A stretch of DNA of 64,000 nucleotides. Origin: Corallococcus soli. Lineage in GTDB: Bacteria > Myxococcota > Myxococcia > Myxococcales > Myxococcaceae. The stretch is from the NCBI RefSeq assembly GCF_014930455.1, contig NZ_JAAIYO010000011.1:248001-312000 (forward strand), given 5' to 3'. Below are positions 44,602 to 60,990 of the stretch, piece by piece. A model generated the notes under the pieces. That model was not told where the DNA came from. It was given only the letters and a program-made list of their open reading frames with translations, and made no database searches. Each line of letters starts with the position of its first letter. The stretch's first letter is position 1. A program made the translations under genes and the position numbers.

Positions 44602-46056
44602 CTACGCTTCGGCCGGGGGCGCGGCGGCTTCCAGCTTCGCGAGCTGGTCCAGGTACGCGCGGCCCTTCGCCGGATCCGTCATGTAGAGGAACGCGGCCAT
44701 GCCCTTGAGCTGCTCCAGCGACTCGCCCTCGCGGCCCGGCTTGCCCTTCTGACGGTTGTGGATGGCCGCGCGCAGGCGGCGCACCACGTCGCGGGGGACT
44801 CGCGCGGCCGGGGTGCCGTCCTTCGCCTCGTTCACCACGAGCCCCGTGACCCGCTGACGGCTGCCCTTGCGGGCCACGCGCGTCTTGTTCGGGTGCACCG
44901 TGAAGCCCTCCGCCTCCACCACGTCCTTCACCCGCGCGAGCAGCACCGCCACCGGCGCGCCCTGGGCCCGGCGCGCCTTGGCGGCCTTCGCCTTCGTCCA
45001 GGAGAACGTCAGGTCGTCCGCGTAGCGCGTGTACGTGAAGCCCAGCTTGCGCGACAGCGCCGACAGCCGCTTGTCCATCCGCAGGCACAGCGCGTTGGTG
45101 ATGCCCGGCGACGTGGGCGCGCCCTGCGGCAGCGCCCGGGGGCCCTTGGCGACGTGCAGCGTCTTGCCCCGGAAGGACAAGAGCTCGCGCGGGGCCTCGG
45201 TGGACATCAGCGCCAGCAGCGTGGACGTGCCCTCCGGCAGGCCGCCCTTGCGCAGCAGGCCCTTCACCCGGCGCCACGTCACCGTGGGGAAGAAGTCCTT
45301 CAGGTCCACCTTCACCACCACGTCCGCGCCCTGGTGCGCCAGCGCGTTGGTGAGGATGGAGCGCCCCGCCACGAAGCCGTGCGCCGCGCCGTGCACCGGC
45401 AGCCGCTCCACGACGTTGGAGAGCACCCAGCGCTGCGCCTGCTTCAGCTCCGGCTTGGGCGACGTGATGGTCCGCTCGCTGCCGTCCCGCTTGGGGATGC
45501 GCCAGCTCACGTAGTTGGAGCCCGTGTCCACGTCGCGGTGGAACGCGAAGCCGCGCAGCTTGGACACGCTGACGTCCAGCGCCTTGGCCAGCGCCTCCGC
45601 GTCGTCCAGCGCGGGCAGGCCGTTGACGCGCGCGCGCTCCTCGCGGTGCTCCAGGTCGAAGCGGTCCGGGAGCGAAGTCTCACTCCAGTGGATGCCCACG
45701 CCCAGGTGGTTGATGTGCGTGGCCTTCCACGCCTCGTGGGCCTGGCGCCCGAGCGCGCGGCGCTCCACGGCCTCCGCCTTCTTCTTCTCCTTCCAGGCGG
45801 TCTTCTCCTTCTCCTTGAGGGAGGAGAAGTCCACCTCGTCCGCGAGCGCGCCCTTCGCGACGAGCTGCGCCTGCACCCACTCCTCGGTGCCGCCGGCTTC
45901 GGTGATGGCCTTCCAGCGCGCGAGCAGCACGTCGTGCGCGGCGCGGCGGGCCTCGCGCTTGGAGGCGGTGGCGGTGTTGGACGCGGCGGCCGGCGGGACT
46001 TCGGGCACGGCCTGCGGCGGGGCGGCGGGGACGAACGACTCCAGCTTGGCGGTCAT
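44602..46056 (-). CDS. Retron reverse transcriptase (Mx162 class)
   Basis: 484 aa, the same size as the myxobacterial Mx162 RT (485 aa as I recall). Residues 1-150 are a charged N-terminal extension. The RT core spans ~165-420: VSWRIPKRDGSERTI, N237-A-L-A-H241 (retron NAxxH), Asp251 in KVDLKDFFP, LPQGAPTSP (311-318), Tyr345-Ala-Asp-Asp348 and the retron VTG motif at 403-405. The last ~70 residues bind the RNA in known retron RTs. It makes branched RNA-DNA (msDNA) from the adjacent msr-msd RNA, whose a2 repeat ends 52 nt upstream of the ATG. It is the last gene of the minus-strand accessory gene cluster. Confidence 0.95.
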   Translation of the reverse strand: MTAKLESFVPAAPPQAVPEVPPAAASNTATASKREARRAAHDVLLARWKAITEAGGTEEWVQAQLVAKGALADEVDFSSLKEKEKTAWKEKKKAEAVERRALGRQAHEAWKATHINHLGVGIHWSETSLPDRFDLEHREERARVNGLPALDDAEALAKALDVSVSKLRGFAFHRDVDTGSNYVSWRIPKRDGSERTITSPKPELKQAQRWVLSNVVERLPVHGAAHGFVAGRSILTNALAHQGADVVVKVDLKDFFPTVTWRRVKGLLRKGGLPEGTSTLLALMSTEAPRELLSFRGKTLHVAKGPRALPQGAPTSPGITNALCLRMDKRLSALSRKLGFTYTRYADDLTFSWTKAKAAKARRAQGAPVAVLLARVKDVVEAEGFTVHPNKTRVARKGSRQRVTGLVVNEAKDGTPAARVPRDVVRRLRAAIHNRQKGKPGREGESLEQLKGMAAFLYMTDPAKGRAYLDQLAKLEAAAPPAEA

Positions 46057-46108
46057 CGAGGCACCTTCGACGGGCGCGGCGGCTTCAGGAGGGGCGACGG
46101 ACGAATCC

Positions 46109-46381
46109 GAGCGGTCGAGGGAGGCCAGGAAGGCACCACCAGCTCACCTGGGGCACGGTAGCCTCACCGGCTCTCCCCTCCGGTGCACTAGGGCCCGGGT
46201 GGGAAAACGGCGGCTGCGTCGTTGGTTCCGCTTCCCGCCCGGGCCCTAGTGCACCGGAGGGAGAGAGCCAAGAACAGGCTACCTTGCGAAGAGTGTCCAG
46301 CATTCCAACCAGAGCGGCGCAACGCCGCTCCCGCGCTCGAGGCGCTAAGGCTGATGCGGTCCAGACCTCTCTCGACCACTC
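46109..46381 (-). ncRNA. Retron msr-msd RNA, Mx162-like
   Basis: The a1 repeat (46364-46381) and a2 repeat (46109-46126) are 18-nt complements with 15 Watson-Crick pairs, 2 wobbles and 1 mismatch. After a1 the msr carries CCTTAGCG, identical to the branch-site context of Ec86, giving branching G at 46345. A perfect 8-bp hairpin GAGCGGCG/CGCCGCTC lies at 46312-46330. The msd is one long hairpin: outer 46157-46164/46276-46283, then 46169-46204 with 46233-46269 (36 bp, one bulged A, one wobble) and a 28-nt apical loop. cDNA from the a2 edge to about 46288 would be ~162 nt, fitting Mx162. Confidence 0.92.
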
Positions 46382-46453
46382 GTGATTCGTGTTTCGTCCG
46401 TCGCACCCATCCTTCCAGCCACCCCGTCGGCGGCCGGGCCGTTGGTTGAGGGT

Positions 46454-48313
46454 TTACACCAGAGTCGAGGCCGCGTCGATGTAGCCGTCCGCGGTCAATT
46501 TCTCCAGGCGGCTGAAGTACGCCGTCCGGGCTTCCGTGTCCGAGTCGAACCACAGGCGCTGATGGCGTGAGTCGCCCAAGCGGGGACCCCAGGCGAGGAC
46601 CACCACCTTGCCGTCCAGCGAGACGCGATACACCTGCTCCAGGCCCGTCGCCGGGTCGCGGCGCACGTACGAGCGCGTCTCCGCGCGGATGAGCTTGCGG
46701 CCCTCCGGCGTCTGGCGCAGCGCCTCCTCCTCCGTGCGGCGGCGCGCGTACGCCAGGCGCAGCGCGAGCATGTGCTCGCACGGGCCTTCGCGCATCCCGG
46801 AGCGACGGAAGTGCGGGCAGCCGCAGCCCGCGTCCTTCACGCGGCCCTCCAGGTCCAGCGTGAAGCTGGGGAAGAAGCTGCGCACGGCCTCGCGGTCCAC
46901 CACCTCGCCTTGGATGCGCGTGCCCTCACCCACGAGGTCGTGCACCTGGGTGAGCTTCACTTCGCCCGCGCCGGGGCCGCCGTCGCCCAGCAGGCGGTGG
47001 GCGCGCGCCTCGCGCTCGTTGCCGTAGCGCAGCGCGGCCTCGTCCACCGGGGTGGGCATCAGCTCGCGGGGGCGGTAGGCGCCGCGCGCCACGTCGAAGA
47101 GGACGCGGCCGCGCAGGCACTCCAGCTGGAGCGCGGCGCGCACCTGGTCCTTGGGCGCGCCCGCGTCCTTCGCCAGCACGTCGAAGGTGAGCGGGCCGTC
47201 CGCGCGCAGGCGCTGGCGCAGCTTCTCCGCGAGGGGCTCCGGCACGTCGCGCGGCATCAGCGCGTCGAAGGCCGCGGCGCTGGACCAGCCGCTCTCCGTC
47301 CAGCCCGTGAGCCCCAGCGTCAGCGTGGCCTGCCCCAGGTCGATGACCCAGAACACCGGCAGGCCCGGACCCAGCAACTGGACGTGCACGCTCTTCGCGT
47401 GGGGCAAGAGGCGCGCGAGCGCGGTGAGGCGGTTGCGGCCGAAGGTGCGCACCACCGCGGGGGCGCTGCCCTGGTACGGGCCGCCGTGGCACTCCAGCAC
47501 CTGCTCCCACGGCTCCAGCACCAGCCGGGGCGCGGCGCCGGGGACCAGCTCGAAGCGCAGCGCGCGGGGCGCCTTCTTCGAGCGGCGGGTGCGCAGCGCG
47601 AAGAGCAGGTTGTACAGGTCGATGGGCGCGATGGAGCAGGTGGTGGCCGGCAGCGTCGCGGCCGACTGCACCTGGAGGAAGCCGCGCAGCCACGCGTGCG
47701 GCACCTCCACGTTGCGCGGGGCGCGGGGCTCACCCGGCGCGGGGGCCTTCGCGGACGGGGCGACGTGGGCCTCCAGCGTCACCGGGGCGTAGGCGCGCAG
47801 GCGGTCCAGGCGGGCGGGCAGGTCCGCGGGCACGTCCAGGAAGGTGGAGCCGTGCGCGGCCTCGCGGTGGTCGAAGAGGCTGTTGTCGAAGGCCAGCCGC
47901 GCGTAGGCGCTCTCGTCGCGGGAGAAGACCTCCAGTGACACCTGATCCGGATCCACCGTGAGGACGGGGTCCAGCACCGCGTCCTGCTTCTCCTCGCCTT
48001 CGAGCGAGCTGTCGAGGAACGCCTTCTGGGCCTCCCAGATCTGCGCGCTGGCGCGCTTGCCCTGCTTCATCAGGTACGCCAGGTACGCGGTGCGGTCGCG
48101 GCCCCGGTAGCGCAGGTCGCTGGAGAGCACGGCGAAGGCGGCGGCCAGCGCGTCGCGGAAGAGGGTGGGGTCCTTCACGGTGCCGCTGACGCCCACGGTG
48201 CCGCGCGAGCCCTCCAGGGCCAGCTGCACGCGCGAGGCGTCCGGGGTGACGACCACGTCGCTCGCGGCGGCGTAGTTCAGCGCGACGGGATGACGTGCGG
48301 TTGCGGTGCTCAC
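46454..48313 (-). CDS. Winged-helix / SWIM zinc finger / WGR protein (retron accessory)
   Basis: 619 aa, GTG start in a GTGA overlap with the upstream gene's stop. Residues 1-340 are an unassigned alpha/beta region. A winged helix spans ~358-420 (GPLTFDVLAKDAGAPKDQVRAALQ, then a wing). The SWIM motif is C497-x-C499 and C512-x-H514 in GCGCPHF and GPCEHMLAL. Residues ~545-615 resemble a WGR domain (VYRVSLDGKVVVLAWGPRLG and FSRLEKLTADGY). SWIM and WGR modules bind DNA or broken ends in other proteins. It is directly upstream of the retron RNA, only 72 nt from a1, so it is probably part of the retron system. Its biochemical role is unknown. Confidence 0.85.
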   Translation of the reverse strand: MSTATARHPVALNYAAASDVVVTPDASRVQLALEGSRGTVGVSGTVKDPTLFRDALAAAFAVLSSDLRYRGRDRTAYLAYLMKQGKRASAQIWEAQKAFLDSSLEGEEKQDAVLDPVLTVDPDQVSLEVFSRDESAYARLAFDNSLFDHREAAHGSTFLDVPADLPARLDRLRAYAPVTLEAHVAPSAKAPAPGEPRAPRNVEVPHAWLRGFLQVQSAATLPATTCSIAPIDLYNLLFALRTRRSKKAPRALRFELVPGAAPRLVLEPWEQVLECHGGPYQGSAPAVVRTFGRNRLTALARLLPHAKSVHVQLLGPGLPVFWVIDLGQATLTLGLTGWTESGWSSAAAFDALMPRDVPEPLAEKLRQRLRADGPLTFDVLAKDAGAPKDQVRAALQLECLRGRVLFDVARGAYRPRELMPTPVDEAALRYGNEREARAHRLLGDGGPGAGEVKLTQVHDLVGEGTRIQGEVVDREAVRSFFPSFTLDLEGRVKDAGCGCPHFRRSGMREGPCEHMLALRLAYARRRTEEEALRQTPEGRKLIRAETRSYVRRDPATGLEQVYRVSLDGKVVVLAWGPRLGDSRHQRLWFDSDTEARTAYFSRLEKLTADGYIDAASTLV

Positions 48314-51300
48314 GACGGTTGACCTTCCTTGCGGGCGCGCTCGGCGGCCCGGCGTGCACGTTTGTGGGCGCGGTAGGCCGCCTTGCGCAGCTCCACCGAC
48401 TGCGATTTGTCGAAGGCCGCGGTCTTCAGCAGCGCCGCCGCCTCGTCACCGCCCAGGCGCCCCAGCGCGGCCCACGCGTCCTGCCGCACCTCCGGCTTCG
48501 CGTCGGACGCCACGGACTTGAGCGGCCCCAGGTCCTTCTTCGCCAGCAGCGCCGGCACCGCGAGCCTGCGCGGCTCGCTGGCCGTGAGCAGGCCCGGCGC
48601 CACCTTCGCGCCCGTGGGGCCCATGGCCACCGGGTCGAAGGGCTTCACCTCCAGCGCCCAGGCGGAGGCCTGGTCCGGCACCAGCGCGGCCAGCACCGAC
48701 GCGGCGGCGGAGCGCACCGGGGCGTCCGGGTCCGCCAGCGCGGTGCGCAGGGCCTGCGCCTCGTTCGTCGCCTTCAGCCGTCCCAGCACGCGCGCGGCTT
48801 CCTGCCGCACGCCCGCGGGGGCCTGGGTTTCACCCTTGCGCAGCACGTCGGCGGACGTCGCGACCAGCTCCTTCGCGCCCAGCCGCGAGCCCGTCCACAG
48901 GAGGCGCTCCCAGGCGCTGGCCAGCGGCGCGCGCTTCGGGGGCGACGTGGCGGCCCAGGCGGCGGCGGTGCGCCGTTCGGCGGCGACGACCGCGCGGGTC
49001 AGGCTGGCGGTGTCGGTGGCGCTCAGCTCGCGCGCATCGCCCGTCCAGGTGCCCACCAGCCGCGCGGCCTCTTCGCGGGCCTCCGGCTTGTCGTGGCCCA
49101 GGAGCGCGATGACCTCCGGCAGCGGCAGCGCGCCCCGACGGGCGAGCCCCCGACGCAGCCTCAAGCGCAGCTCCGCGTTCTCCAGCGTGGCCAGCCGGGG
49201 CACGAGCTGCGCCGGGTCGCCTTCGCTGGCGAGGTAGGTGGCGGCGGGCTCGGAGATGTCCTCCTGGGTGCTGGCCACGGCGAGGAACTCCACGCGCGTG
49301 CGGTCCTTCGGGAAGAGGGCGTCCAGCGCCTTGCGCGCGGCCTCGCGCAGGTCGTCGTCGTCCTCGTCCAGCGCGGCGGCCAGGGCCTTCTCCGCCTCCG
49401 GGTCACCGAGCTTGCCCAGCTCCTTCGCCACGGTGATGCGCACCTCGTCGTCCGTGTCGCTGTCGGCGAGCAGCGCCTCCAGCTTCACCCGGGCGCGCTC
49501 CCCACCGATGGCGCGCAGGCCGCGCACGCCGGCTTCCTGGTGCTCGGAGGAGGTGCCCTCCATCGCGGCGACCTCCACCTTCTCCTCGATGCGGCGGCGC
49601 TCCTCGCCCTCGGGCATCCGGCTGGCGAGCCGGCCCAGGGCCTCGATGGCGGCCAGCACCATGTCCTGTTCGGCGGGCGCGTCCGCGGTGCCGCCACCGG
49701 CCACCGTCTCCAGCTCGGAGAGGGCCCGGGCGTCGCCCAGGGTGCCCAGCGCGAGCAGGGCCCGGCCGCGCTCCTCGCCTTCACCGGCGCGCGAATACAG
49801 CAGCAGGGGCCTCAGGGCGCTGGCCCGGCGCAGGTGCGCCACGCCCTCGGCCGCGGGCAGCATCAGCTCCCGGGCTCCGGCGCGCAGCACCTCCTCCAGC
49901 GGCTCCACCGCCGCGCCCTGCTCCACCACGCGCTTCGAGTAGCGCGCCACCGCTTCGGCACGCACCGTGACGTCGCGGTCGGTGAAGAGCGAGACGAGCA
50001 GCGCGTCCTGGCCCTCGTTCTTGCCGTGCTCCAGCTCCGTGGCGGCGGCCTTGCGGACCTCCACGTCGTTGCTGCGCACGGCCACCTTCAGGAAGCGCAC
50101 GGCGAGCGCCGCGTCGCGCTTCTTCAGGTCGCGCTCGCGCTCCTTCAGCTTCTCCTGCTCCGGCGGCCAGGTGAGCTGCATCGCGGCCGTCACGGTGGCG
50201 AGGCGCACGGTGGCGTTCTCGTCCTCCACGCTCTGGCGCGCGAGCACGTCCAGCGCTTCCGGACGGCGGGTGCGGCCCAGCGCGGCCACCAGCTTCGTGC
50301 GCTCCGGAATCTCTGGCGCCACGGACAGTCGCGCGGCGAGCGCGGCCACGGCGGCGGACGTGCCCAGGCGCGCCAGGGCCTCCTGCGCGCGGCGCACCAC
50401 CAGCGGCACTTCGGAGCGCAGGAAGGCGCCCAGCACCTCCACCGCCCGGTCATCCCCGCGCCACGCGAGCAGCTCCGCGGCGCGCAGCCGCAGGTCCTCA
50501 TGTTCGCTGCCGGCCGCGCGGCCCAGGGCCTCGGTGACGCGCGGGTCGTTGGCGCCCGCCAGCCGCTCGATGACGCCCACGCGCAGGTCGGCGTGCTCGC
50601 TGCCCAGCGCGGCCAGCAGCGGCTCCAGGCTGCCCGCCGGGCTCAGCTTCTCCAGCAGCTCGAAGGCGGACTTGCGCACCTCCGGCAGCGGCGAGTTGAG
50701 CGCCGCCGTCACGCGCGGACGGGCCGCGTCGCCGCGCTCCGCCAGCTCCTCCAGCGCGGCGCGGGCCACGTCCGGAGACAGCGAGGCCAGGGCCAGCGCC
50801 AGCGGCTCGTCGCTGCCGGCGGGGTACAGCTCCTTGAGGCCCGCGAGCGCCGCGCGTCGCACCAACTGGTGCGGATCCTCCAGCGCGCGCAGCAGGGCGG
50901 CCACGGCGGCGGACGTGCCCGCGTAGCCCTCCAGGGTGAGCTTCACCACGCGGTCCACGGCGTCGCGGCGGACGCGGTGGCCCTCCTCGTCGCCCGCGGA
51001 CACCTGCCGCAGCAGGCCCACATAGGCGCCGAACGCCAGCCGGCGCAGGTGCTGGCGCTCCGCCTGGGTCGCCGTCTGCGGCGTCGCGGTGCTTCCCTCC
51101 GGCGGCTTCACCGCGGAGAAGAGGCGGCGCAGCCAGCTCTTGCCCGTGGCGGACGCCGTGCCCTGCTTCTCCAGCGTGGACGCCTGCACCACGTGCGCCG
51201 CACCCTCGGCCGTCTCCGGCTTCCAGGGCGCCTCCAGCGTGCGGGGCCGCGCGACCTTCTGCGCCTCGCGGAAGTAGTCCAGGGGCTTGTTGCGCAGCAG

Positions 51301-54300
51301 CAGCACCTGGGCCGCCGCGTAGCGCTGCTCCGGCTGGGCGCTGGAGAGCGCCTCCGCCAGGCCCACCACGCGCTTGGCCCGGTCCTCTTCGGCGGGCCAG
51401 TCCTTCATGTCGCCGGCCTTCTCCGGGCGCGGCGGCAACAGCACCTCCACCAGGTGCGCGCGGTACGCGTCCGGCTCCGTGCGCAGCTCCAGCGCGCGCG
51501 CCGCCGCGTAGCGCACTTCCGGGCGTCCGCTGGACAGCGCGCTGGTCAGCAGGTCCGGCGGCTCGCCGTCGCGGCTGGCGCGCAGGTCGCGGGCGAGCAC
51601 GATGGCGAACACCATCTCCTGCACCTCGCGCGCGGCGTCCTCCAGGCCGTGCAGCAGGCCGCCGTCGCCCTCCGGGCCCAGGGCCGCGAAGGCGAGGATG
51701 GCGCCCAGCCGGATGGGCAGGTGCTCATGGCGCAGGTTGCCGGTGAGCACCGGCAGCGCGCGCACGTCACCCAGGCGCGACAGGCCGTCCGCCGCCCACG
51801 AGCGGGCCGCGACCAGCGAGTGCCCCAGGGCGTCCAGCAGCGCGCCCTCATCCCCCCGGCGACTGGCGGTGGCGAGTCCGCGCGCGCCCTGCTCCTGGAG
51901 GTCCGACAGCTCGTGCGGCAGGAGCACCGTGGCGTAGAAGCCCAGCAGGCGGCGCGAGCCCAGCGTGGCCAGCGCGCGCGCCGCGCGGATGCGCAGGGGG
52001 ACCAGGAAGCCCGACGGGTAGAGCCGCTCCAGGTCCTTGTCGGTGATGAGCCCGCGCAGGGGCTCGATGATGTCCTCCGCGCCGCGCGGGGCGAGCAGCT
52101 CCGCGGCCCGCACGCGCACCGGCAGCGCCGACGCCGCGATGCCCGCGAGCAGGGGGCCGTTCTCACCGGGGATGAGCTTGTCGAGCGCCTCCAGCGCCGC
52201 GACGGCCACGTCCAGGTGTTCGTCCTGCACGCGCTTGAGGAGCGCGGAGCGCAGGGGCTCCGCGGGCGCGTGGACGGCGCCCTTCGCGGCCTTCTCGCGC
52301 AGCGCCGGGTGCGTGGAGGCGAGCGCGGCCAGGTGCGGCTCCGGCTTCTCCTTGCCCGCGAGCTTCACCCACGCCTCGTACGCGGCGGTGGCCACGGCCA
52401 CGTCGCGGTCCTCCACGGACTTCTTCAGCCGGTTGAGCGCCCAGTCTTCCGTGCCGCGCTGGGCGAGCACCTCCACCGCGCGGTTGCGCAGGTCCGGGAA
52501 GCGGCCCGTCAGCGCGCGGTCCACCGCCTTCTCCGGCTCCTTCTCGTTCCACGCCCACAGCGTGCGGAACGCCTCGCCGCGCACCTTGCCGGACTCGTCC
52601 TCCAGCGCGTTGCCCAGCAGCGGCTCCGCGCCGGCCGCCTTCGCGCCCAGCTTCACCAGCCGGTCCAGGCCGCGCACGCGCACGTCCTCGTGCCCGGAGC
52701 GCAGCGCGGCCTCCGCGGCGGACAGGGGCGCGTCCACGTCCAGCGCCACCACCGCCTCCAGCGCCGTGGCGCGCACGTCCGCGTCCGCGTCGTCCAGCAT
52801 CCACACCAGCCGCTCGCGGGCGCGCGGGTCCTGCAGTGCCTGGAGCGAGGCCGCCGCCTGACGCCGGATGGCGGACTCGTCCTCGCGCGACAGCTGCAAC
52901 AGCGCCCCCAGCGCCCGGCCGTCCCCCAGCTGCGCCAGGCCGCGAGCGCCCCGCACCGCCGTGTCCGGCATGCGGCACGCCATGGCCGCGAGCAGCGGCT
53001 CCAGGTCGGCCTCCGCCAGCGCCGCGCCCGCCGTGGCCTGGGCGAAGAGCTTCTCGCGCGAGGCGGCCAGCTCCGCGTCGGTGGCGGACTTCGCCTCCGC
53101 CTCCCCGGCCGCGCGCTTCGCCTGGAGCGTCAGCATGCGCGCCACTTCACGCACCGACCGGGCGAACTCCTCGTCCTGCTTCTCCAGCGTGAGCGCCAGG
53201 GAGCGGCGCTCCAGCACGCGCACGGCGAAGGCCACGCGGCGCACGTCCCGGTCCGCGTCGTCCAGCGCGCGCGCCACCAGCGGTTGCAGGCGCGGGTCCC
53301 CCAGCAGGCCCGCCACGGAGGCGCGCAGCAGCACCTCCACCTTGAGGGCGGCGGGGCCCCGCTCGAAGGCGAGCTTCAGGGGCTCCGTGCTGCCGGACGG
53401 GGAGACGGCGACCAGCGCGTCCAGCGCGGCCTCGCCCACGGGGGCCTTGTCGTCCGCGAGCTTGCCGGAGATGAGCCCCGGCACCAGCGGCGACGTGCCG
53501 CCCAGCTTCGAGAGCCGGCGCAGCGCCAGCACGCGCGTGTCGGAGAAGCGCGAGTCGAGCGCCGCGCGCGGGGCGGCCAGCGGCGACTCCGTCTCCAGCT
53601 TCGTCAGCGCGTCCAGCGCGGCGGTGCGCACGCCCACCACGTCGTCGTTGAGCCGCTCGCGCAGCTTCGCCCGCGCGGCGGTGCGGCCGTGCGTGCCCAG
53701 CTCCATGGCGGCGAGCTTGCGCACCTCCGCGTCCGGATCCGTGCCCAGCAGGGCCAGCGCGAACTCCAGCGCCTCCGGCTCCTGGAGCGCGGCGGCTTCG
53801 CGCACGGCGGCCTCGCGGCGCGGACGGCCCGCCTTGCGCGCCTCCTGCAACACGTCGAAGCCGTGCGTGTACGTCACCTGCTCGTCCGTGGGCTTGCCGT
53901 CCGTGCCCAGCGTGAGGCGCGTGACGGTGCGCTCATCCCCGGCCGCGAACACGAAGCCCAGCAGCTGCTTCGCCTGACGGGGGTTGGCCGGCGGCCCGAA
54001 GGCCACCGCGTGCACGGCCCTGGTGCCCAGCTCGAACGTGCGCGGCTTGCGGCGCTCGTCCAGCCGCCAGACCTTCAGCTTGCCGTCGCCGCCCACCGAC
54101 GCGATGCGCTCCGCCGGCTCCTGGCCCGCCTCCGCCACGGGCGTGGGCGGGAACACCAGCCCCAGCACCGGGCCCGCGTGGCCGCTGTCCTTCTCGCCGC
54201 GGACCTCGAACTCCACCGCGCCCACCAGGTACCAGATGCGCAGCTTCCCATCGTCGCCCGCGGAGACCAGTCGCCCGTCGCGCGGCGTGAAGGCCAGCGC

Positions 54301-54840
54301 GCGCACCGCGCCCTCATGGCCCGCCATGTCCCGCCGGGCGCCGGAGGCCACCGTGAACGAGCGCACCACGCCGTCATCACCCGCGCAGGCGACGTACGTG
54401 TGCGAGGGGTCCACCGCCACCGCGCGCAGCGGCTGCGCGGACGCGCTCCACTCCGTCAGCTTGCGCGTGCTCTCCCAGTCCCACGCGCGCACGAAGCCGT
54501 CCATGCCCGCCGTGTAGAGCACCTTGCCGTCCGGGCTCGCGGCCACCGCCGTGCACCCGCCCGGGTGCGCGCCCTGGAGCTGGAACTGCACCGCGCCGTC
54601 GGTGAGCGACCCGAAGCGCACCGTGCCGTCCGCGCCCGCCGCGGCGTAGCGCTCGCCGGACAGCGCGAGCCCCAGCACGTGGGCCGGCAGCGACGCCGTC
54701 CACAGGACCTTGTTGGTGCCGGGCTCGTACGCGGTGAGGCGGCTGTCCGGGGCGGCACGCGTGCCCCCCACGAGCAGCAGGCGGGCATTGGCCGCGAGCG
54801 CACGGACCTTCTCGATGTTGCCGATGGAGAGGTTGGCCAT
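48310..54840 (-). CDS. Giant WD40-HEAT repeat protein (2,176 aa)
   Basis: Residues 1-330 form a WD40-like beta-propeller: ERYAAAGADGTVRFGSLTDG, GKVLYTAGMDGFVRAWDW, DGRLVSAGDDGKLRIW, GGDGKLKVWRL. From ~345 to the end there are dozens of HEAT/PBS-type repeats (typical unit: 'DPDAEVRKLAAMELGTHG'; later 'DTDDEVRITVAKELGKLGDPEAEKAL'), giving a long solenoid. No nuclease or protease motif is visible. It is 12 nt downstream of the 908-aa gene and overlaps the SWIM gene by 4 nt, so the three form one operon. It is a scaffold, likely sensing or holding a DNA-protein complex; this is inference. Confidence 0.88.
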   Translation of the reverse strand: MANLSIGNIEKVRALAANARLLLVGGTRAAPDSRLTAYEPGTNKVLWTASLPAHVLGLALSGERYAAAGADGTVRFGSLTDGAVQFQLQGAHPGGCTAVAASPDGKVLYTAGMDGFVRAWDWESTRKLTEWSASAQPLRAVAVDPSHTYVACAGDDGVVRSFTVASGARRDMAGHEGAVRALAFTPRDGRLVSAGDDGKLRIWYLVGAVEFEVRGEKDSGHAGPVLGLVFPPTPVAEAGQEPAERIASVGGDGKLKVWRLDERRKPRTFELGTRAVHAVAFGPPANPRQAKQLLGFVFAAGDERTVTRLTLGTDGKPTDEQVTYTHGFDVLQEARKAGRPRREAAVREAAALQEPEALEFALALLGTDPDAEVRKLAAMELGTHGRTAARAKLRERLNDDVVGVRTAALDALTKLETESPLAAPRAALDSRFSDTRVLALRRLSKLGGTSPLVPGLISGKLADDKAPVGEAALDALVAVSPSGSTEPLKLAFERGPAALKVEVLLRASVAGLLGDPRLQPLVARALDDADRDVRRVAFAVRVLERRSLALTLEKQDEEFARSVREVARMLTLQAKRAAGEAEAKSATDAELAASREKLFAQATAGAALAEADLEPLLAAMACRMPDTAVRGARGLAQLGDGRALGALLQLSREDESAIRRQAAASLQALQDPRARERLVWMLDDADADVRATALEAVVALDVDAPLSAAEAALRSGHEDVRVRGLDRLVKLGAKAAGAEPLLGNALEDESGKVRGEAFRTLWAWNEKEPEKAVDRALTGRFPDLRNRAVEVLAQRGTEDWALNRLKKSVEDRDVAVATAAYEAWVKLAGKEKPEPHLAALASTHPALREKAAKGAVHAPAEPLRSALLKRVQDEHLDVAVAALEALDKLIPGENGPLLAGIAASALPVRVRAAELLAPRGAEDIIEPLRGLITDKDLERLYPSGFLVPLRIRAARALATLGSRRLLGFYATVLLPHELSDLQEQGARGLATASRRGDEGALLDALGHSLVAARSWAADGLSRLGDVRALPVLTGNLRHEHLPIRLGAILAFAALGPEGDGGLLHGLEDAAREVQEMVFAIVLARDLRASRDGEPPDLLTSALSSGRPEVRYAAARALELRTEPDAYRAHLVEVLLPPRPEKAGDMKDWPAEEDRAKRVVGLAEALSSAQPEQRYAAAQVLLLRNKPLDYFREAQKVARPRTLEAPWKPETAEGAAHVVQASTLEKQGTASATGKSWLRRLFSAVKPPEGSTATPQTATQAERQHLRRLAFGAYVGLLRQVSAGDEEGHRVRRDAVDRVVKLTLEGYAGTSAAVAALLRALEDPHQLVRRAALAGLKELYPAGSDEPLALALASLSPDVARAALEELAERGDAARPRVTAALNSPLPEVRKSAFELLEKLSPAGSLEPLLAALGSEHADLRVGVIERLAGANDPRVTEALGRAAGSEHEDLRLRAAELLAWRGDDRAVEVLGAFLRSEVPLVVRRAQEALARLGTSAAVAALAARLSVAPEIPERTKLVAALGRTRRPEALDVLARQSVEDENATVRLATVTAAMQLTWPPEQEKLKERERDLKKRDAALAVRFLKVAVRSNDVEVRKAAATELEHGKNEGQDALLVSLFTDRDVTVRAEAVARYSKRVVEQGAAVEPLEEVLRAGARELMLPAAEGVAHLRRASALRPLLLYSRAGEGEERGRALLALGTLGDARALSELETVAGGGTADAPAEQDMVLAAIEALGRLASRMPEGEERRRIEEKVEVAAMEGTSSEHQEAGVRGLRAIGGERARVKLEALLADSDTDDEVRITVAKELGKLGDPEAEKALAAALDEDDDDLREAARKALDALFPKDRTRVEFLAVASTQEDISEPAATYLASEGDPAQLVPRLATLENAELRLRLRRGLARRGALPLPEVIALLGHDKPEAREEAARLVGTWTGDARELSATDTASLTRAVVAAERRTAAAWAATSPPKRAPLASAWERLLWTGSRLGAKELVATSADVLRKGETQAPAGVRQEAARVLGRLKATNEAQALRTALADPDAPVRSAAASVLAALVPDQASAWALEVKPFDPVAMGPTGAKVAPGLLTASEPRRLAVPALLAKKDLGPLKSVASDAKPEVRQDAWAALGRLGGDEAAALLKTAAFDKSQSVELRKAAYRAHKRARRAAERARKEGQPS

Positions 54841-54852
54841 GGTGTCGTTGTC

Positions 54853-57579
54853 CTAGATGCCGCCGAGCTGCACGCCCGGGTGAGCCGCACGCAGTTGCAC
54901 CAGCGAGGCCAGACAGCTCTGCCACTCGCCCTTCGCCACGGAGCCGGTGAATTCGCCCAGCACGGGCGCCACCACGCGGGCGAAGCTCTCGTCTTCCAGG
55001 CCCAGGTCCCGCACCAGCTCCACCACGCGGCGCTTGGCCACGCTCGCGGACAGCCGGCGCTGCACGTCGCCCTCGCGCGCTTCCTTCGCGCGCCCGGGCG
55101 GCAGGCCGAACAGCATGCGCCGCAGGAACGTGCGCAGCGCCTCCACGTCGGAGAAGCGCGTCGTGCCACCGGCCTCGCGCGCGTCCTTGCCGCCGCCCGC
55201 CGGCTTCCAGTCCTCCGGCAGGTGCAGCGGACGGTGCTTCTCCCAGAGCAGCCGCACCGCGAACAGGCCCACCTCGCGGTCCGCGCTCTGCATCAGGCCG
55301 GACAGCCGCTCCGCCCCGCCCAGCCGCGCGTAGTGCCGGCGGATGAGCTCCACCGCCACCTCCCGCGTGCTGCGCTTGGTGGACTCCGTGAGCGCGAACA
55401 CCTTGCCCGCGTCCAGCTCCTCCGGCTGCAGCGTGTGGCGCGCATCCGCCCCCGGCTCGCCCGCGTTGAGCAGGGCGTCATAGGCCAGGTTGCGGATCTC
55501 CTTCGCGTCCGAGTCCGCCAGCTCGTACACCCGCGTCTGGTAGCCCCACGCGCGCAACTCCGAGCGGGCGATGGTCAGCGCGAAGCGGCGCACGTCGTCG
55601 CGCGCGTCCAGCAGCGCGGGCCACAGCTTCTCCGGCGTGTACGCCTTGCGAGGCGCCCGGGGCTTGATGTCGTAGGACTTCGACTCCGGCTGCTCCGGCC
55701 CGATGCCCGGGTGGTGGCAGCGCAGGTACGTCTGCGCGAACGTGCGCACCGGCGGCGGCTGCTTCGCGCCCAGCGCCAGGTCGAACAGGCGCTCCAGGCC
55801 CTGCGCCGCGTCGCCCGTGTCGCTGAAGTCCGCGGGCACCACGTTCTCCAGCAGGTAGCGGTGCCCGAAGTCGTGCAGCGTGGGGTCCGCCCGGCGCGCC
55901 AGCGCCAGCAGCCAGGGCACCGTGAGCTGCCGCGCGGTGAAAAGCTTGCGGTTGCCCAGCAGCGCCAGCGCCGTCTCGCGGTGCTTCGCGCTGAACACCA
56001 GCGCCTTCACCCGCTCCACGTCCAGGCCCGGCAGGCTGTCCGCGCGCGTGAGCCACTGCGCCGCCTGACGTCCCAAACGCGGGTTCGACACCAGGTCCAG
56101 CAGCCACTCCGGCCCGATGTCCGCCGGCTTGTACGCGCCCAGCGCCTTCATCGCCGCGTCCTCCACGACGCGCGGGCGCGACGAGCGCTTCGCCTCCGTC
56201 AGCGTCTGCTTCCAGAACGCCGCGGGCATCTCCCCGGCGGCGTACTTGGACGCGATGTAGCCGGTGGCCCACTTGAGCTGCTCCTGCTTGCCGAAGAGCT
56301 GCTCGCGCAGGAAGTCCTGGGTGAGCTCCGCCCGGTCGAAGGACTGCTCCAGCACCTTCGCCGCGAAGCCCGCCGTGGCCTTCGTGACGAGCAGCCGGCC
56401 CAGCAGCTCCAGCCCCAGCTCGCGCGGCTTGCGCTTCTCCAGCGTGGCGGCGGCGAACGCCACCACGTCGTCCTCGCCGCCCTCCACCAGCTCCGCCAGC
56501 CGGTCCGCGGACATGTCCTGCGCGTGGCCGCGCGCGTACTCGATGGCGTACGCCCGGGCCTTGTCGCTGGGGGACTCCAGCAGCGCGAGCACCGCGTCGT
56601 GCAGCCCGACGGCGCGCAGCTTGCCCTGGTGGAACTCCGGCGAGCCCTGGAGCGTCTCCACCAGGAAGTCGTGCGCGGTGCCCAGGGGCCGGCGCGCCAG
56701 CCGGTCCAGCCACGCGGGCGTCACCTTGCGCAGCGCCTCCGGGAAGTCCTTGCGCAGGCCCTGGATGGCGAACTTCGCGGCCGGGTCCGAACCGCAGGTG
56801 TCCAACAGGCGCATCAGCGCGTCCGGCGAGCGCTTCCACGCGTCCGGGTACATGCGCTGCTTCACCATGTCCCCGGGCGGCTGGATGGAGAAGCGCGTCG
56901 CGGAGTAGTTGCGGCCGTTGTGCGCCCAGACGTGGTGCGCCACCCAGCAGGAGGACCAGGACGTGTCCGGCTGGTAGTGCCGCAGCACCTCCACCGCGAA
57001 CTGCGGGTAGAGCTCCGGCACGGCCGCGCCCAGGTGGCGCAGGAAGCGCCACGCGCGGCGCTGGAGGTAGGTGAGGGTGCCGCTGCCCACCTCGCGCGAG
57101 CGGTGGCTGCCGCGCTCGGTGTCGAATCGCCACGCCAGCACGCCGAACATCTCCGCGTCGTGGCGCGCTTCGGACAGCTTGTAGATGCGCTTGAGGCCCG
57201 CCCAGAGGCCGAACTTCAGCGGCGCTTCCTTCACCAGCGTGAAGAGCGCGGCGCGCGCGGGCTCGCTGTTCTTCTCGTACAGGGACACCAGCAGGTCCGC
57301 GAGCGCGAACCGCGCGGGCAGGGGCACGTCCTTCTGCGCGAGGAAGCGCTGCCACGCTTCATGCGAGCCCTTGCGACGGCCGGCCTTCTCACCCTGCGCC
57401 TGCGCCTGCGCGAGCAGCGCCCTCAGCGCGTCGAAGTCGAGCGCGCCCTGCGGCAGCGGGGTGTCCGACGTCTTGTCCGGCTGGTCCAGGAACGCCAGCA
57501 CGGCCTCGGCGAGGTCCGGTGCCTCCGCCCTGGCCAGACGTTCAAGGTCCGTTGCGCTCAGCGCGTCGCTCGGGGTCAT
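54853..57579 (-). CDS. Large ARM/HEAT-like helical-repeat protein (908 aa, retron cluster)
   Basis: All-helical, Leu/Ala/Arg-rich. The N-terminal 240 residues contain a conserved-looking core (WRFDTERGSHRSREVGSGTLTYLQRRAWRFLRHLG, then SSCWVAHHVWAHNGRNY). Residues 250-908 have degenerate ARM/HEAT-like repeats (e.g. DARDDVRRFALTIARSELRAWG, STREVAVELIRRHYARLGG). There is no enzymatic motif. It is the first gene of the three-gene cluster preceding the retron; 12 nt separate it from the giant WD40-HEAT gene. Upstream lies the 57634-60990 gene with a 54-nt gap, so the operon may start with either. ATG chosen; no good ribosome site is seen. Confidence 0.85.
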   Translation of the reverse strand: MTPSDALSATDLERLARAEAPDLAEAVLAFLDQPDKTSDTPLPQGALDFDALRALLAQAQAQGEKAGRRKGSHEAWQRFLAQKDVPLPARFALADLLVSLYEKNSEPARAALFTLVKEAPLKFGLWAGLKRIYKLSEARHDAEMFGVLAWRFDTERGSHRSREVGSGTLTYLQRRAWRFLRHLGAAVPELYPQFAVEVLRHYQPDTSWSSCWVAHHVWAHNGRNYSATRFSIQPPGDMVKQRMYPDAWKRSPDALMRLLDTCGSDPAAKFAIQGLRKDFPEALRKVTPAWLDRLARRPLGTAHDFLVETLQGSPEFHQGKLRAVGLHDAVLALLESPSDKARAYAIEYARGHAQDMSADRLAELVEGGEDDVVAFAAATLEKRKPRELGLELLGRLLVTKATAGFAAKVLEQSFDRAELTQDFLREQLFGKQEQLKWATGYIASKYAAGEMPAAFWKQTLTEAKRSSRPRVVEDAAMKALGAYKPADIGPEWLLDLVSNPRLGRQAAQWLTRADSLPGLDVERVKALVFSAKHRETALALLGNRKLFTARQLTVPWLLALARRADPTLHDFGHRYLLENVVPADFSDTGDAAQGLERLFDLALGAKQPPPVRTFAQTYLRCHHPGIGPEQPESKSYDIKPRAPRKAYTPEKLWPALLDARDDVRRFALTIARSELRAWGYQTRVYELADSDAKEIRNLAYDALLNAGEPGADARHTLQPEELDAGKVFALTESTKRSTREVAVELIRRHYARLGGAERLSGLMQSADREVGLFAVRLLWEKHRPLHLPEDWKPAGGGKDAREAGGTTRFSDVEALRTFLRRMLFGLPPGRAKEAREGDVQRRLSASVAKRRVVELVRDLGLEDESFARVVAPVLGEFTGSVAKGEWQSCLASLVQLRAAHPGVQLGGI

Positions 57580-57633: not shown

Positions 57634-60600
57634 TCACCAGGTGAGGGTGGGCACCTGCACCTCCTGCGCGGCGGTGGTCCCCACCGCCACGTCCTGCCGG
57701 TACGTCAGCCACCTGCCCTGGCCCCGGTGGTGCAGCACCAGCAGCGTGTAGGGCCCGGGGGGCACGTGCTCCCAGGTCTCGTTGCCGGAGGAGGTGCGCA
57801 GGCCCTTCTGGCGCAGCTGTCCCGCCGCGTCGTCCGACGCTGGCAGCGGCACCGTGCCCGGGAAGAGGAGCGCGATCCCCTGGGCCCCGCGCTCGCCCCA
57901 GCGCAGCGTCACCGTGGTGCCCGGCGAGGTCGCGAGCAGCTCCACCCGGGTGATGCGATGCGGCTGGACCTGCACCTTCTTGTAGGGCGCCACGTACGGG
58001 CCGCTCCCGGCGCGCAGGCCCACCAGGTAGGCGCCGGGCTCCAGCTCACGGAAGACGGTCTTCGCTTCATCGTCGGGCAGGAGGCTGATGACCTCCAGGT
58101 CCCGCTCCGCCCAGGCCGACACCATGGCGGGGTAGGGCTTGCCCTGCGCGTCCTTCACCGACACCTCCAGGCGGGTGTCGCCCTGGAGGCGCAGCTCGAG
58201 CGTGTCCTCGGTGGGGCCCAGCGCGCGCTCCAGCGTCGCGTAGTCCGCCTTGGCGTGCATCGCGGTGAGCCGGTACGGCCGGGACTCCACGGAGGGCAGC
58301 GTGAAGGTGCCATCCCGGGCGGTGGTGGTGTCCAGGAAGCCGCCGTGGACGTCGTAGATGTCGTACTTCTCCCCGGACTCCTCCTCCGCCGCGGCCTTCA
58401 GCTCCGCGAGCGGAAGGGACAGGGAGATGTCCACGCCCTCCAGCGGTTCGCCCGTCGCGTCGTCCACCACGCGGCCCCGGACGGTGTGCCCCGCTTCGAT
58501 GCGCACCTCGCCCAGGTCCACGTCGCGTCCGGCGGGGACCCGCACCTCGCGCTGGGTGAGGGCGTGGCCCGAAGCCTGGAAGGTCAGGTGCTGGAGGCCG
58601 GGCTTGTCCACGAAGACGGTGAAGGCCCCGCGCGGGTCGCGCACGGGCTCCTCGTTCAGCTCGAAGCGCGTGAGGGGCGCCCCGTTCGGCTTCACCAGCC
58701 GTCCGGTGATGCGGCTCTGGGCGGTCAGCACGACGCGCACGGCCAGGTTGCCCGCGCGGGCGATCACCCTGGGCTCCTCGTCGTCCGGCACCCACCGGCC
58801 CAGCTTCAACCCTCCGAGCAGCTCATCGGAACCCTCGTCGTCCTCGTCGTCCTCGGGCTCGGGTTCGGGCTTCGCGGGGGGGCGGGGCATCGCGTAGCCG
58901 GGCTTCGTCGCCGTCAGCTCGTAGTCCCAGTCCCGGGCCAGCGGCTCCAGGGCGAAGCGGCCGTCGGGCCCCGTCACGGCCTCCAGGGGGGAATAGGAGC
59001 GGCCCTCGCTGGCCTCGTCCTCCCTGGCCACGGCCGTCACGGTGACGCCCGCCAGGGGCTGGCCCCGGGCATCCACCACCACGCCGGCCATCCGCCCATC
59101 CAGGTCCAGCCGCAGCGCCAGCTCCACGGTCTCCGAGCCCCGCACGTCCACGCGCTGGGGCAGCAGGCGCTGGTAGCCGCCCGCGGTCGCCGCCAACCAG
59201 ACGGCGTAGCTGCCCGGTTCCACGCCCCGGATGACGAACGTCCCGTCCTCCTCCGTGGAGCCCGCGAAGTCGACGCGCCCGTGGTCCTCCGGGTCGTCCT
59301 CGTCCACGCCGCCCTTGCTCAGGGTGACGTCCACTCCGTTGACGGGGGCGCCGCTGGAGCTCGTCACGGAGCCCTGCACCGTGGCGCCGGACTCCAGGGT
59401 CACCTGGATGCCGGAGGAGGGCGCCTGGGCCTGGATTTCGCGCCGCAGGAAGCCCTCCGCCTCGACGATGAGGGGGCCCGCCATGGCCTTGTCCACCTTG
59501 ATGATGAAGTGGCCTGTGTCGTCGGTCGTGGCCTCGAAGGTGCGGATGCGCATGTGCCTGTGGTGCATGAAGAGCCGTGGCTTCCCGGGGGTCGTCTCCG
59601 CGGGTTGGGGGCGCAGCGACAGGGAGGCCTCCTTCACCGGCTGGCCCTGGGCATCCAGGACCCGGCCCTCCACGAGGATCGCGGGGGACAGGACGAACTC
59701 CAGGGGTGGGGTGTCGCGGCCCACGGCCCGCTCCTGGGTGAGGTCCTGCATCCGCTCCGCCACCACCTGGAACTGATAGGTGCGCGCCATCAGCGGGCCC
59801 AGGCGCGCGTGGCCTTCCGCGTTGGTCTGCCGGGTCTTGTCCACGCCCTCGCCCACCTCGCCCAGGTCGAAGGCGTCCCTGTCGGCGCCGATGGCGACCA
59901 CCACGGCGTCGCGCACGGGACGGCCCGCCGTATCTCGCACGGTGACGTCGACGAAGAATGCGGTGCCCAGGCTGAGCGTCACCTCGGCGTCGGATGGGTG
60001 CTCCGTCAATTCCACCTGGGCCCACGCCCGCTGGCCGTCGTGTTCCGCGGTCATGACGTAGGCGGAGGGCAGCAGGTTGTCGAAGCGGAAGCGCCCGTCG
60101 GCGTCGGAGACGGCGATGCGCCCACCGGCCTTCTCCACCACGGAGACGCCGGGGACGGGCCGCTCACCATTGAGCACCTGGCCCACGATGCGCCGGGGCG
60201 GGTGCAGCACCAGGTCCTCCTCCAGGGGCACCGGGCTCAGGTCCTGGAGCCAGGTGGAGAGCTTGCCCGGGTGGGCGGCGGCCAGGGTGTAGATGGCCAT
60301 GGGGAGGGGGCCCACGGCGAAGCGGCCCTCGGCGTCCGCGGTCGCTTCAAAGTAGCGCGCGTTCCCGGTGTGCAGCACCGTCAGCCGGGTGCCGGGGAGC
60401 GGGGCGCCGTCCTCGTCCACCACGCGGCCGGAGAGCTTCTGGGCGGGGGCGAGCACCAGCTTCACGTCCTGGGCGCCGGTGGCGACGTCCTCCTCCAGGG
60501 CGGCGCCGTCCGGGCCCAGCGCCCACACGGCCACGGTGCCCTGGGGCAGCCCCTCCAGCGTGAAGGTGCCGTCCTGGGCGGAGGCGGTGCGCGTGAGCAC

Positions 60601-60990
60601 GAAGGCCGAGCCCCGGTGGGAGGCCACCATCTCCAGCGCCCAGTCCCAGGCGGAGGCGGTGGTGCAGTCCCCGTCCGCCAGCGAGACGTCCGGGTCCGTG
60701 TCGCAGGGCAGCTCCGACAGGGTCTCTCCGGGCAGGGGCACCGTGGCGGAGACCTCCACGCCGGCGACGGGCTGGCCCCGGAGGTCCAGGACGCGGCCCC
60801 GCACCTGGAGCGCGCCCCGGGGCGGCGGGGGCGGGGCCTCCGACAGCGGCCGGCGCACGGGGCGGGACGGGGTGACGCTCGGGCCCTCCGGGGACGGCGA
60901 GGGGGCGCGCAGCCACCACCAGGAGATCCCCGCTCCGACGAGGAGCAGCAACAGCACCCCTCCGATGACCACCGCCGACGGCTTTCGCAT
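57634..60990 (-). CDS. Membrane-anchored protein with many carboxypeptidase regulatory-like domains
   Basis: 1,118 aa. One N-terminal helix (VVIGGVLLLLLVGAGISWWWL) anchors it. A Pro-rich linker follows, then about ten transthyretin-like (CarboxypepD_reg) beta-domains recurring as VxGRVLDxxGQPVAGVEV...DGTFTLEGLPQGTV. Units start near residues 62, 180, 265, 345, 445, 530, 635, 760, 855 and 960. An Asp/Glu-rich stretch (EPEPEDDEDDEGSDE) near 735 may bind cations. Such proteins are typically periplasmic or surface adhesion/structural proteins. It lies 54 nt upstream of the helical-repeat gene, but its content suggests it is not part of the retron system. Confidence 0.85.
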   Translation of the reverse strand: MRKPSAVVIGGVLLLLLVGAGISWWWLRAPSPSPEGPSVTPSRPVRRPLSEAPPPPPRGALQVRGRVLDLRGQPVAGVEVSATVPLPGETLSELPCDTDPDVSLADGDCTTASAWDWALEMVASHRGSAFVLTRTASAQDGTFTLEGLPQGTVAVWALGPDGAALEEDVATGAQDVKLVLAPAQKLSGRVVDEDGAPLPGTRLTVLHTGNARYFEATADAEGRFAVGPLPMAIYTLAAAHPGKLSTWLQDLSPVPLEEDLVLHPPRRIVGQVLNGERPVPGVSVVEKAGGRIAVSDADGRFRFDNLLPSAYVMTAEHDGQRAWAQVELTEHPSDAEVTLSLGTAFFVDVTVRDTAGRPVRDAVVVAIGADRDAFDLGEVGEGVDKTRQTNAEGHARLGPLMARTYQFQVVAERMQDLTQERAVGRDTPPLEFVLSPAILVEGRVLDAQGQPVKEASLSLRPQPAETTPGKPRLFMHHRHMRIRTFEATTDDTGHFIIKVDKAMAGPLIVEAEGFLRREIQAQAPSSGIQVTLESGATVQGSVTSSSGAPVNGVDVTLSKGGVDEDDPEDHGRVDFAGSTEEDGTFVIRGVEPGSYAVWLAATAGGYQRLLPQRVDVRGSETVELALRLDLDGRMAGVVVDARGQPLAGVTVTAVAREDEASEGRSYSPLEAVTGPDGRFALEPLARDWDYELTATKPGYAMPRPPAKPEPEPEDDEDDEGSDELLGGLKLGRWVPDDEEPRVIARAGNLAVRVVLTAQSRITGRLVKPNGAPLTRFELNEEPVRDPRGAFTVFVDKPGLQHLTFQASGHALTQREVRVPAGRDVDLGEVRIEAGHTVRGRVVDDATGEPLEGVDISLSLPLAELKAAAEEESGEKYDIYDVHGGFLDTTTARDGTFTLPSVESRPYRLTAMHAKADYATLERALGPTEDTLELRLQGDTRLEVSVKDAQGKPYPAMVSAWAERDLEVISLLPDDEAKTVFRELEPGAYLVGLRAGSGPYVAPYKKVQVQPHRITRVELLATSPGTTVTLRWGERGAQGIALLFPGTVPLPASDDAAGQLRQKGLRTSSGNETWEHVPPGPYTLLVLHHRGQGRWLTYRQDVAVGTTAAQEVQVPTLTW

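Follow-up and report, generated by a model that had tools for sequence, protein, structure and literature searches.

The retrons closest to the locus analysed here are Mx162 (Retron-Mxa1) from Myxococcus xanthus and Sa163 (Retron-Sau1) from Stigmatella aurantiaca, which represent a long-known myxobacterial retron family, now type XIII. According to the review PMC6868368, 27 of 28 myxobacteria tested carry msDNA, and vertical inheritance of this retron in myxobacteria is the published view. For Mx162, the same review gives a 241-nt transcript from which 16 nt are removed, a 71-nt RNA and a 162-nt DNA, with an overlap of 8. The branch motif of both Mx162 and Sa163 is CAGC (PMC6868368), while TAGC is the commonest branch motif across retrons generally (PMC6868368). 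The locus described below is an intact, ordinary example of this family.

We analysed a 64,000-nucleotide stretch of DNA from Corallococcus soli (the window), in which a complete msr-msd occupies positions 46382-46108 of the minus strand, between a retron reverse transcriptase (RT) gene and a SWIM-domain gene. We are highly confident in identifying it as the msr-msd of a type XIII retron of the Mx162/Sa163 family that is chromosomal and inherited vertically, with an anatomy that we correct here and a partner system. Downstream of the msr-msd lies the RT gene (44602..46056, minus strand, 484 aa), whose best PADLOC family is RT_XIII (PDLC02956; 499 bits, 2.9e-150, versus 287 bits for the runner-up). 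Upstream, on the same strand, PADLOC finds three adjoining genes: a SWIM_XIII partner (46454..48313, 619 aa); a HEAT-ARM_XIII partner with a WD40 propeller and HEAT repeats (48310..54840, 2176 aa); and a second HEAT-ARM_XIII partner (54853..57579, 908 aa), which also matches WGR_XIII. With RT_XIII as the top match and SWIM and HEAT/ARM genes all present and adjacent, nothing breaks the type, and the locus is, judged by its sequence, a type XIII retron orthologous to Mx162. The RT, which is the only one in the whole genome (Pfam RVT_1), retains all the retron motifs intact, i.e., NAxxH in region X (N237-H241), YADD (345-348) and VTG in region Y (403-405), and its PDB sequence matches are solved retron RTs. 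Its closest relatives are in Corallococcus spp. (up to 98% identity), followed by Myxococcus, Pyxidicoccus, Citreicoccus, Hyalangium and Archangium, and in the comparison with Mx162 it is 79% identical to the M. xanthus AM003 copy. Further upstream of the HEAT genes, 57634-60990 (minus strand) encodes a large protein with repeated carboxypeptidase-regulatory-like domains, which is probably unrelated to the retron.

The genes of this locus travel together. The Mx162-like RT and the SWIM gene are both present in 65 of the 96 family genomes, and no genome has one alone, a count that takes in related genomes and does not amount to 65 independent events. The order GMC oxidoreductase, hydrolase, RT, SWIM and HEAT is common to Corallococcus, Myxococcus, Pyxidicoccus and Citreicoccus, which agrees with the vertical inheritance proposed in the literature. 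In Archangium (L084, L085 and L042), the RT-msr unit is 3.4-5.1 kb away from SWIM, and in one Archangium genome it is ~60 kb away (G003:C1:127243 versus 189029), both being retained in each case. Beside the msr of L084 there is a short remnant resembling the SWIM C terminus. Several draft assemblies (L088, L089, L002 and L055) are interrupted at or close to the msr-msd, for which its strong hairpin may be the reason. More distant loci in Nannocystis, Polyangia and a planctomycete (L027-L040) have a similar composition, with RTs ~50-54% and SWIM proteins ~37-43% identical to those of C. soli and HEAT upstream, but differ in that their SWIM and RT genes almost touch, leaving no space for an msr-msd. 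In Nannocystis and Polyangia, the sequence downstream of the RT has no clear msr-msd candidate either. If these loci have an msr-msd, it must lie elsewhere than in the SWIM-RT gap.

What might this system do? The RT and its msDNA would act as one system with the SWIM/clamp-like protein and the two HEAT/WD40 proteins, and the role of that system would most likely be anti-phage defence, as for other retrons, although both the defence role and the task of each partner are assigned by analogy only. An alternative that rivals only the defence part of this reading is that the same retron has a mainly housekeeping or regulatory role in myxobacteria. A stable position and vertical inheritance across the family (also in PMC6868368), unlike what is seen for mobile defence islands, would fit such a role, as would partner proteins among which domain searches found no recognisable toxin enzyme. 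We nevertheless consider it rather unlikely, because PADLOC lists type XIII among candidate defence systems and PMC12548924 describes retrons as immune systems by which infected hosts are killed.

Our analysis defines the anatomy of the msr-msd at base level. As expected for a retron, inverted repeats enclose the msr and the msd, and the inner end of a1 carries a branch G. The a1 (46352..46382) and a2 (46108..46138) repeats, both given on the minus strand and supported by a consensus structure, are present as the initial annotation had proposed. A second helix in that structure, GCATCA/TGGTGC, lengthens their duplex to 46352:46138, and the template would therefore begin at ~46139. Between the repeats are a 9-bp msr hairpin (46311..46331, minus strand), paired in 26 of 26 relatives, and an msd hairpin (46157..46283, minus strand), which is found in RNA folds, DNA folds and the alignment. 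The latter bears out the 44-bp msd stem noted initially, in that 44 of its 46 stem pairs are Watson-Crick. The fold goes far beyond that of shuffled sequences, with z -12.5 for the region as RNA and z -10.2 for the predicted cDNA folded as DNA, and in each case no shuffle was equally good. In Rfam, the msr-msd is without a match at the gathering score, and at E<=1 it matches just microRNA and sRNA families of kinds that match long hairpins.

One correction concerns the branch site. The CAGC motif at 46350..46353 (minus strand), with G46351, is present in every relative covering that position: CATCAGC is kept in 26 Myxococcaceae, and at least CAGC in more divergent relatives. Since CAGC is also the published motif of Mx162 and Sa163, branching is predicted at G46351. 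The TTAGC site (46348-46344) that had previously been proposed instead varies among relatives, reading TTAGC, TCAGC, TCAAC, TGAGC, TTCGC, TCGGC and others, and was rejected as the branch motif. Aligned from a1 to a2 with M. xanthus, the C. soli sequence shows zero gaps, a comparison made against an M. xanthus genome (L018). The homologous cDNA would therefore be 162 nt in both, as published for Mx162. We place this predicted cDNA on the plus strand at 46139..46300, with a 5' end at ~46139 (+/-2) set by the inner end of the duplex and collinearity with M. xanthus, and the predicted 71-nt mature msdRNA on the minus strand at 46293..46363, with an 8-nt overlap with the 3' end of the cDNA, all of these end points being projections from the Mx162 figures of PMC6868368 that are accurate to 1-2 nt at best. 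The same projection would put the transcript start near 46379. Among 48 distinct relatives, the predicted cDNA is 162 nt in 41 and 163 nt in 7. The longer predictions all come from genera g7/g8, on the Hyalangium side, which fits Sa163, whose msd is likewise one base longer than that of C. soli and which shares the family and the CAGC motif, as judged from its published description only.

The following model would account for these features, with branching, ends and processing that we infer from Mx162 biochemistry. The minus-strand transcript would fold so that a1 (46382-46352) pairs with a2 (46108-46138), placing G46351 beside the template. The RT would prime on the 2'-OH of G46351 and copy the msd from ~46139 to ~46300. 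The product would be a 162-nt single-stranded DNA that contains a 44-46 bp hairpin and is joined by a 2',5' linkage to a ~71-nt RNA. The initial annotation had instead started the cDNA at 46127, taken as the inner edge of a2, and ended it at 46288. Its length of ~162 nt, which is expected from collinearity, stands, while its placement is 12 nt off. That the cDNA runs from 46127 to 46288 and branches at TTAGC (G46345) is very improbable, even though TAGC is the branch motif seen most often in retrons at large (PMC6868368) and this interval likewise spans 162 nt. A start at 46127 falls within a2, inside the conserved a1/a2 duplex, which continues to 46138; G46345 is 6 nt past the conserved branch G, on the side facing away from the duplex end; and it is CAGC, not the letters of TTAGC, that is invariant among relatives.

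Covariation supports the fold of the msr-msd. In a consensus structure of 103 pairs, 98.6% of cells are paired, a percentage biased towards a structure that was derived from the same sequences. The count of pairs changed on both sides is safer: there are 29, whereas shuffles give 11.7 +/-2.0 and slid controls 9-13. Most of the 29, namely 25, fall in the msd stem. Along the msd hairpin, the base hardly varies (mean identity 0.99-1.00), and the middle of the stem varies freely (0.69-0.72) yet remains paired. The same is true of the comparison with Mx162, from which the middle of the C. soli stem differs in sequence, with pairing preserved by compensatory changes. The apex (46205..46232, minus strand), in an alignment of 48 relatives, is more conserved (0.88) than the middle of the stem, and the apical stem shows compensatory change in a group whose RT is ~55% identical. 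Because base and apex are conserved, and a whole-genome search for possible targets found no second copy of either the base motif or the apex at <=3 mismatches, with the apex having one genomic site at that threshold, we think that the pattern suggests recognition of both hairpin ends by protein and not base pairing with a target in the genome.

The RT is under purifying selection, with dN/dS values of 0.12-0.25 within Corallococcus and 0.40-0.48 in comparisons with other genera, and no stops. The initial annotation had taken the 162-nt length as a sign that the RNA is functional rather than a relic, and had named an RT mutated relative to active homologues as evidence to the contrary. No such mutation is seen in NAxxH, YADD or VTG. 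That the RNA is probably functional is supported on other grounds: covariation, the intact motifs of the RT and purifying selection are stronger indications than cDNA length, which alone is weak evidence because it follows from collinearity. That the locus is a decayed relic that has kept its shape and no longer makes msDNA is scarcely credible, given compensatory changes all along the msd stem, an RT with intact motifs and low dN/dS, partner genes that are intact and invariably retained together, and msDNA detected in almost all the myxobacteria tested (PMC6868368).

The sequence upstream of the msr may also be functional. A leader hairpin (46415..46437, minus strand) precedes a1, and TGGTGTAAA (46453..46461, minus strand), which overlaps the SWIM stop codon, is proposed to be an extended -10 element. 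The TGGTGTAAA site is conserved as TG[GA]TGTA[AG]A, including in Archangium, where no SWIM gene adjoins it. Because the leader hairpin and the TGGTGTAGAAA motif, which elsewhere overlaps the SWIM stop codon, stay with the msr in Archangium apart from the relocated SWIM gene, the arrangement points to msr-RT having a promoter of its own. A sigma-70 consensus promoter scan gave no match, and an intrinsic terminator scan found none.

The surprising part of this study is the predicted structure of the SWIM partner. Residues 41-339 are predicted to adopt a two-domain PCNA-like sliding-clamp fold, followed by a helical segment and a SWIM zinc finger (C497, C499, C512 and H514). The AlphaFold2 model (pLDDT 80.6, pTM 0.83) resembles PCNA along the entire clamp subunit: all of the best 50 Foldseek matches listed are PCNA (best E 5.6e-7), and VIA-align superposes model residues 42-339 on PCNA with Z 14.5 and 2.6 Å over 212 residues. 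The planctomycete homologue L038 is 43% identical over its first 360 residues, which, folded alone, give a Foldseek E of 1.2e-9 and Z 17.2, 2.8 Å over 215 residues, although the two models are not fully independent since the alignments behind them share members. Matches in a viral structure library are also PCNAs, together with beta clamps. Despite this likeness in fold to PCNA and 9-1-1 clamps, SWIM_XIII differs from them in its extra helices, its SWIM zinc finger and an identity of only ~10%. A profile search of PDB sequences gave nothing up to E 1, no sequence repeat was detected between the two halves of the clamp-like region, and the sole match of the protein in Pfam and NCBIfam was to SWIM, below threshold. 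Because sequence homology to clamps is thus undetected, we call the SWIM partner clamp-like in fold and not a PCNA, and a shared fold by itself shows no function. The libraries and papers that we searched make no mention of this fold in the SWIM partner. Our literature search, in a corpus that did not include the paper defining the retron types (Mestre et al. 2020) or Rice and Lampson 1995, found no paper linking a sliding clamp/PCNA or SWIM with a retron, and an earlier notice of the fold is possible.

Tentatively, type XIII retrons might couple msDNA to a dedicated PCNA-like clamp. The SWIM protein could encircle or grip the 44-46 bp hairpin, or monitor the host or phage replication clamp, and loss of this state under phage attack would trigger the HEAT/WD40 proteins. 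We put this forward as a doubtful but concrete proposal, and the clamp-like SWIM partner as a lead worth testing.

In conclusion, the C. soli msr-msd provides a well-resolved orthologue for the oldest known retron family, with the corrected base-level anatomy that any experiment requires. The clamp-like fold, the strict co-occurrence of RT and SWIM and the conserved apex are concrete handles on the function of Mx162 msDNA. If the clamp reading is true, a clamp-fold protein would stand at the centre of this retron, and Mx162, which was among the first msDNAs discovered, would gain a testable mode of action.
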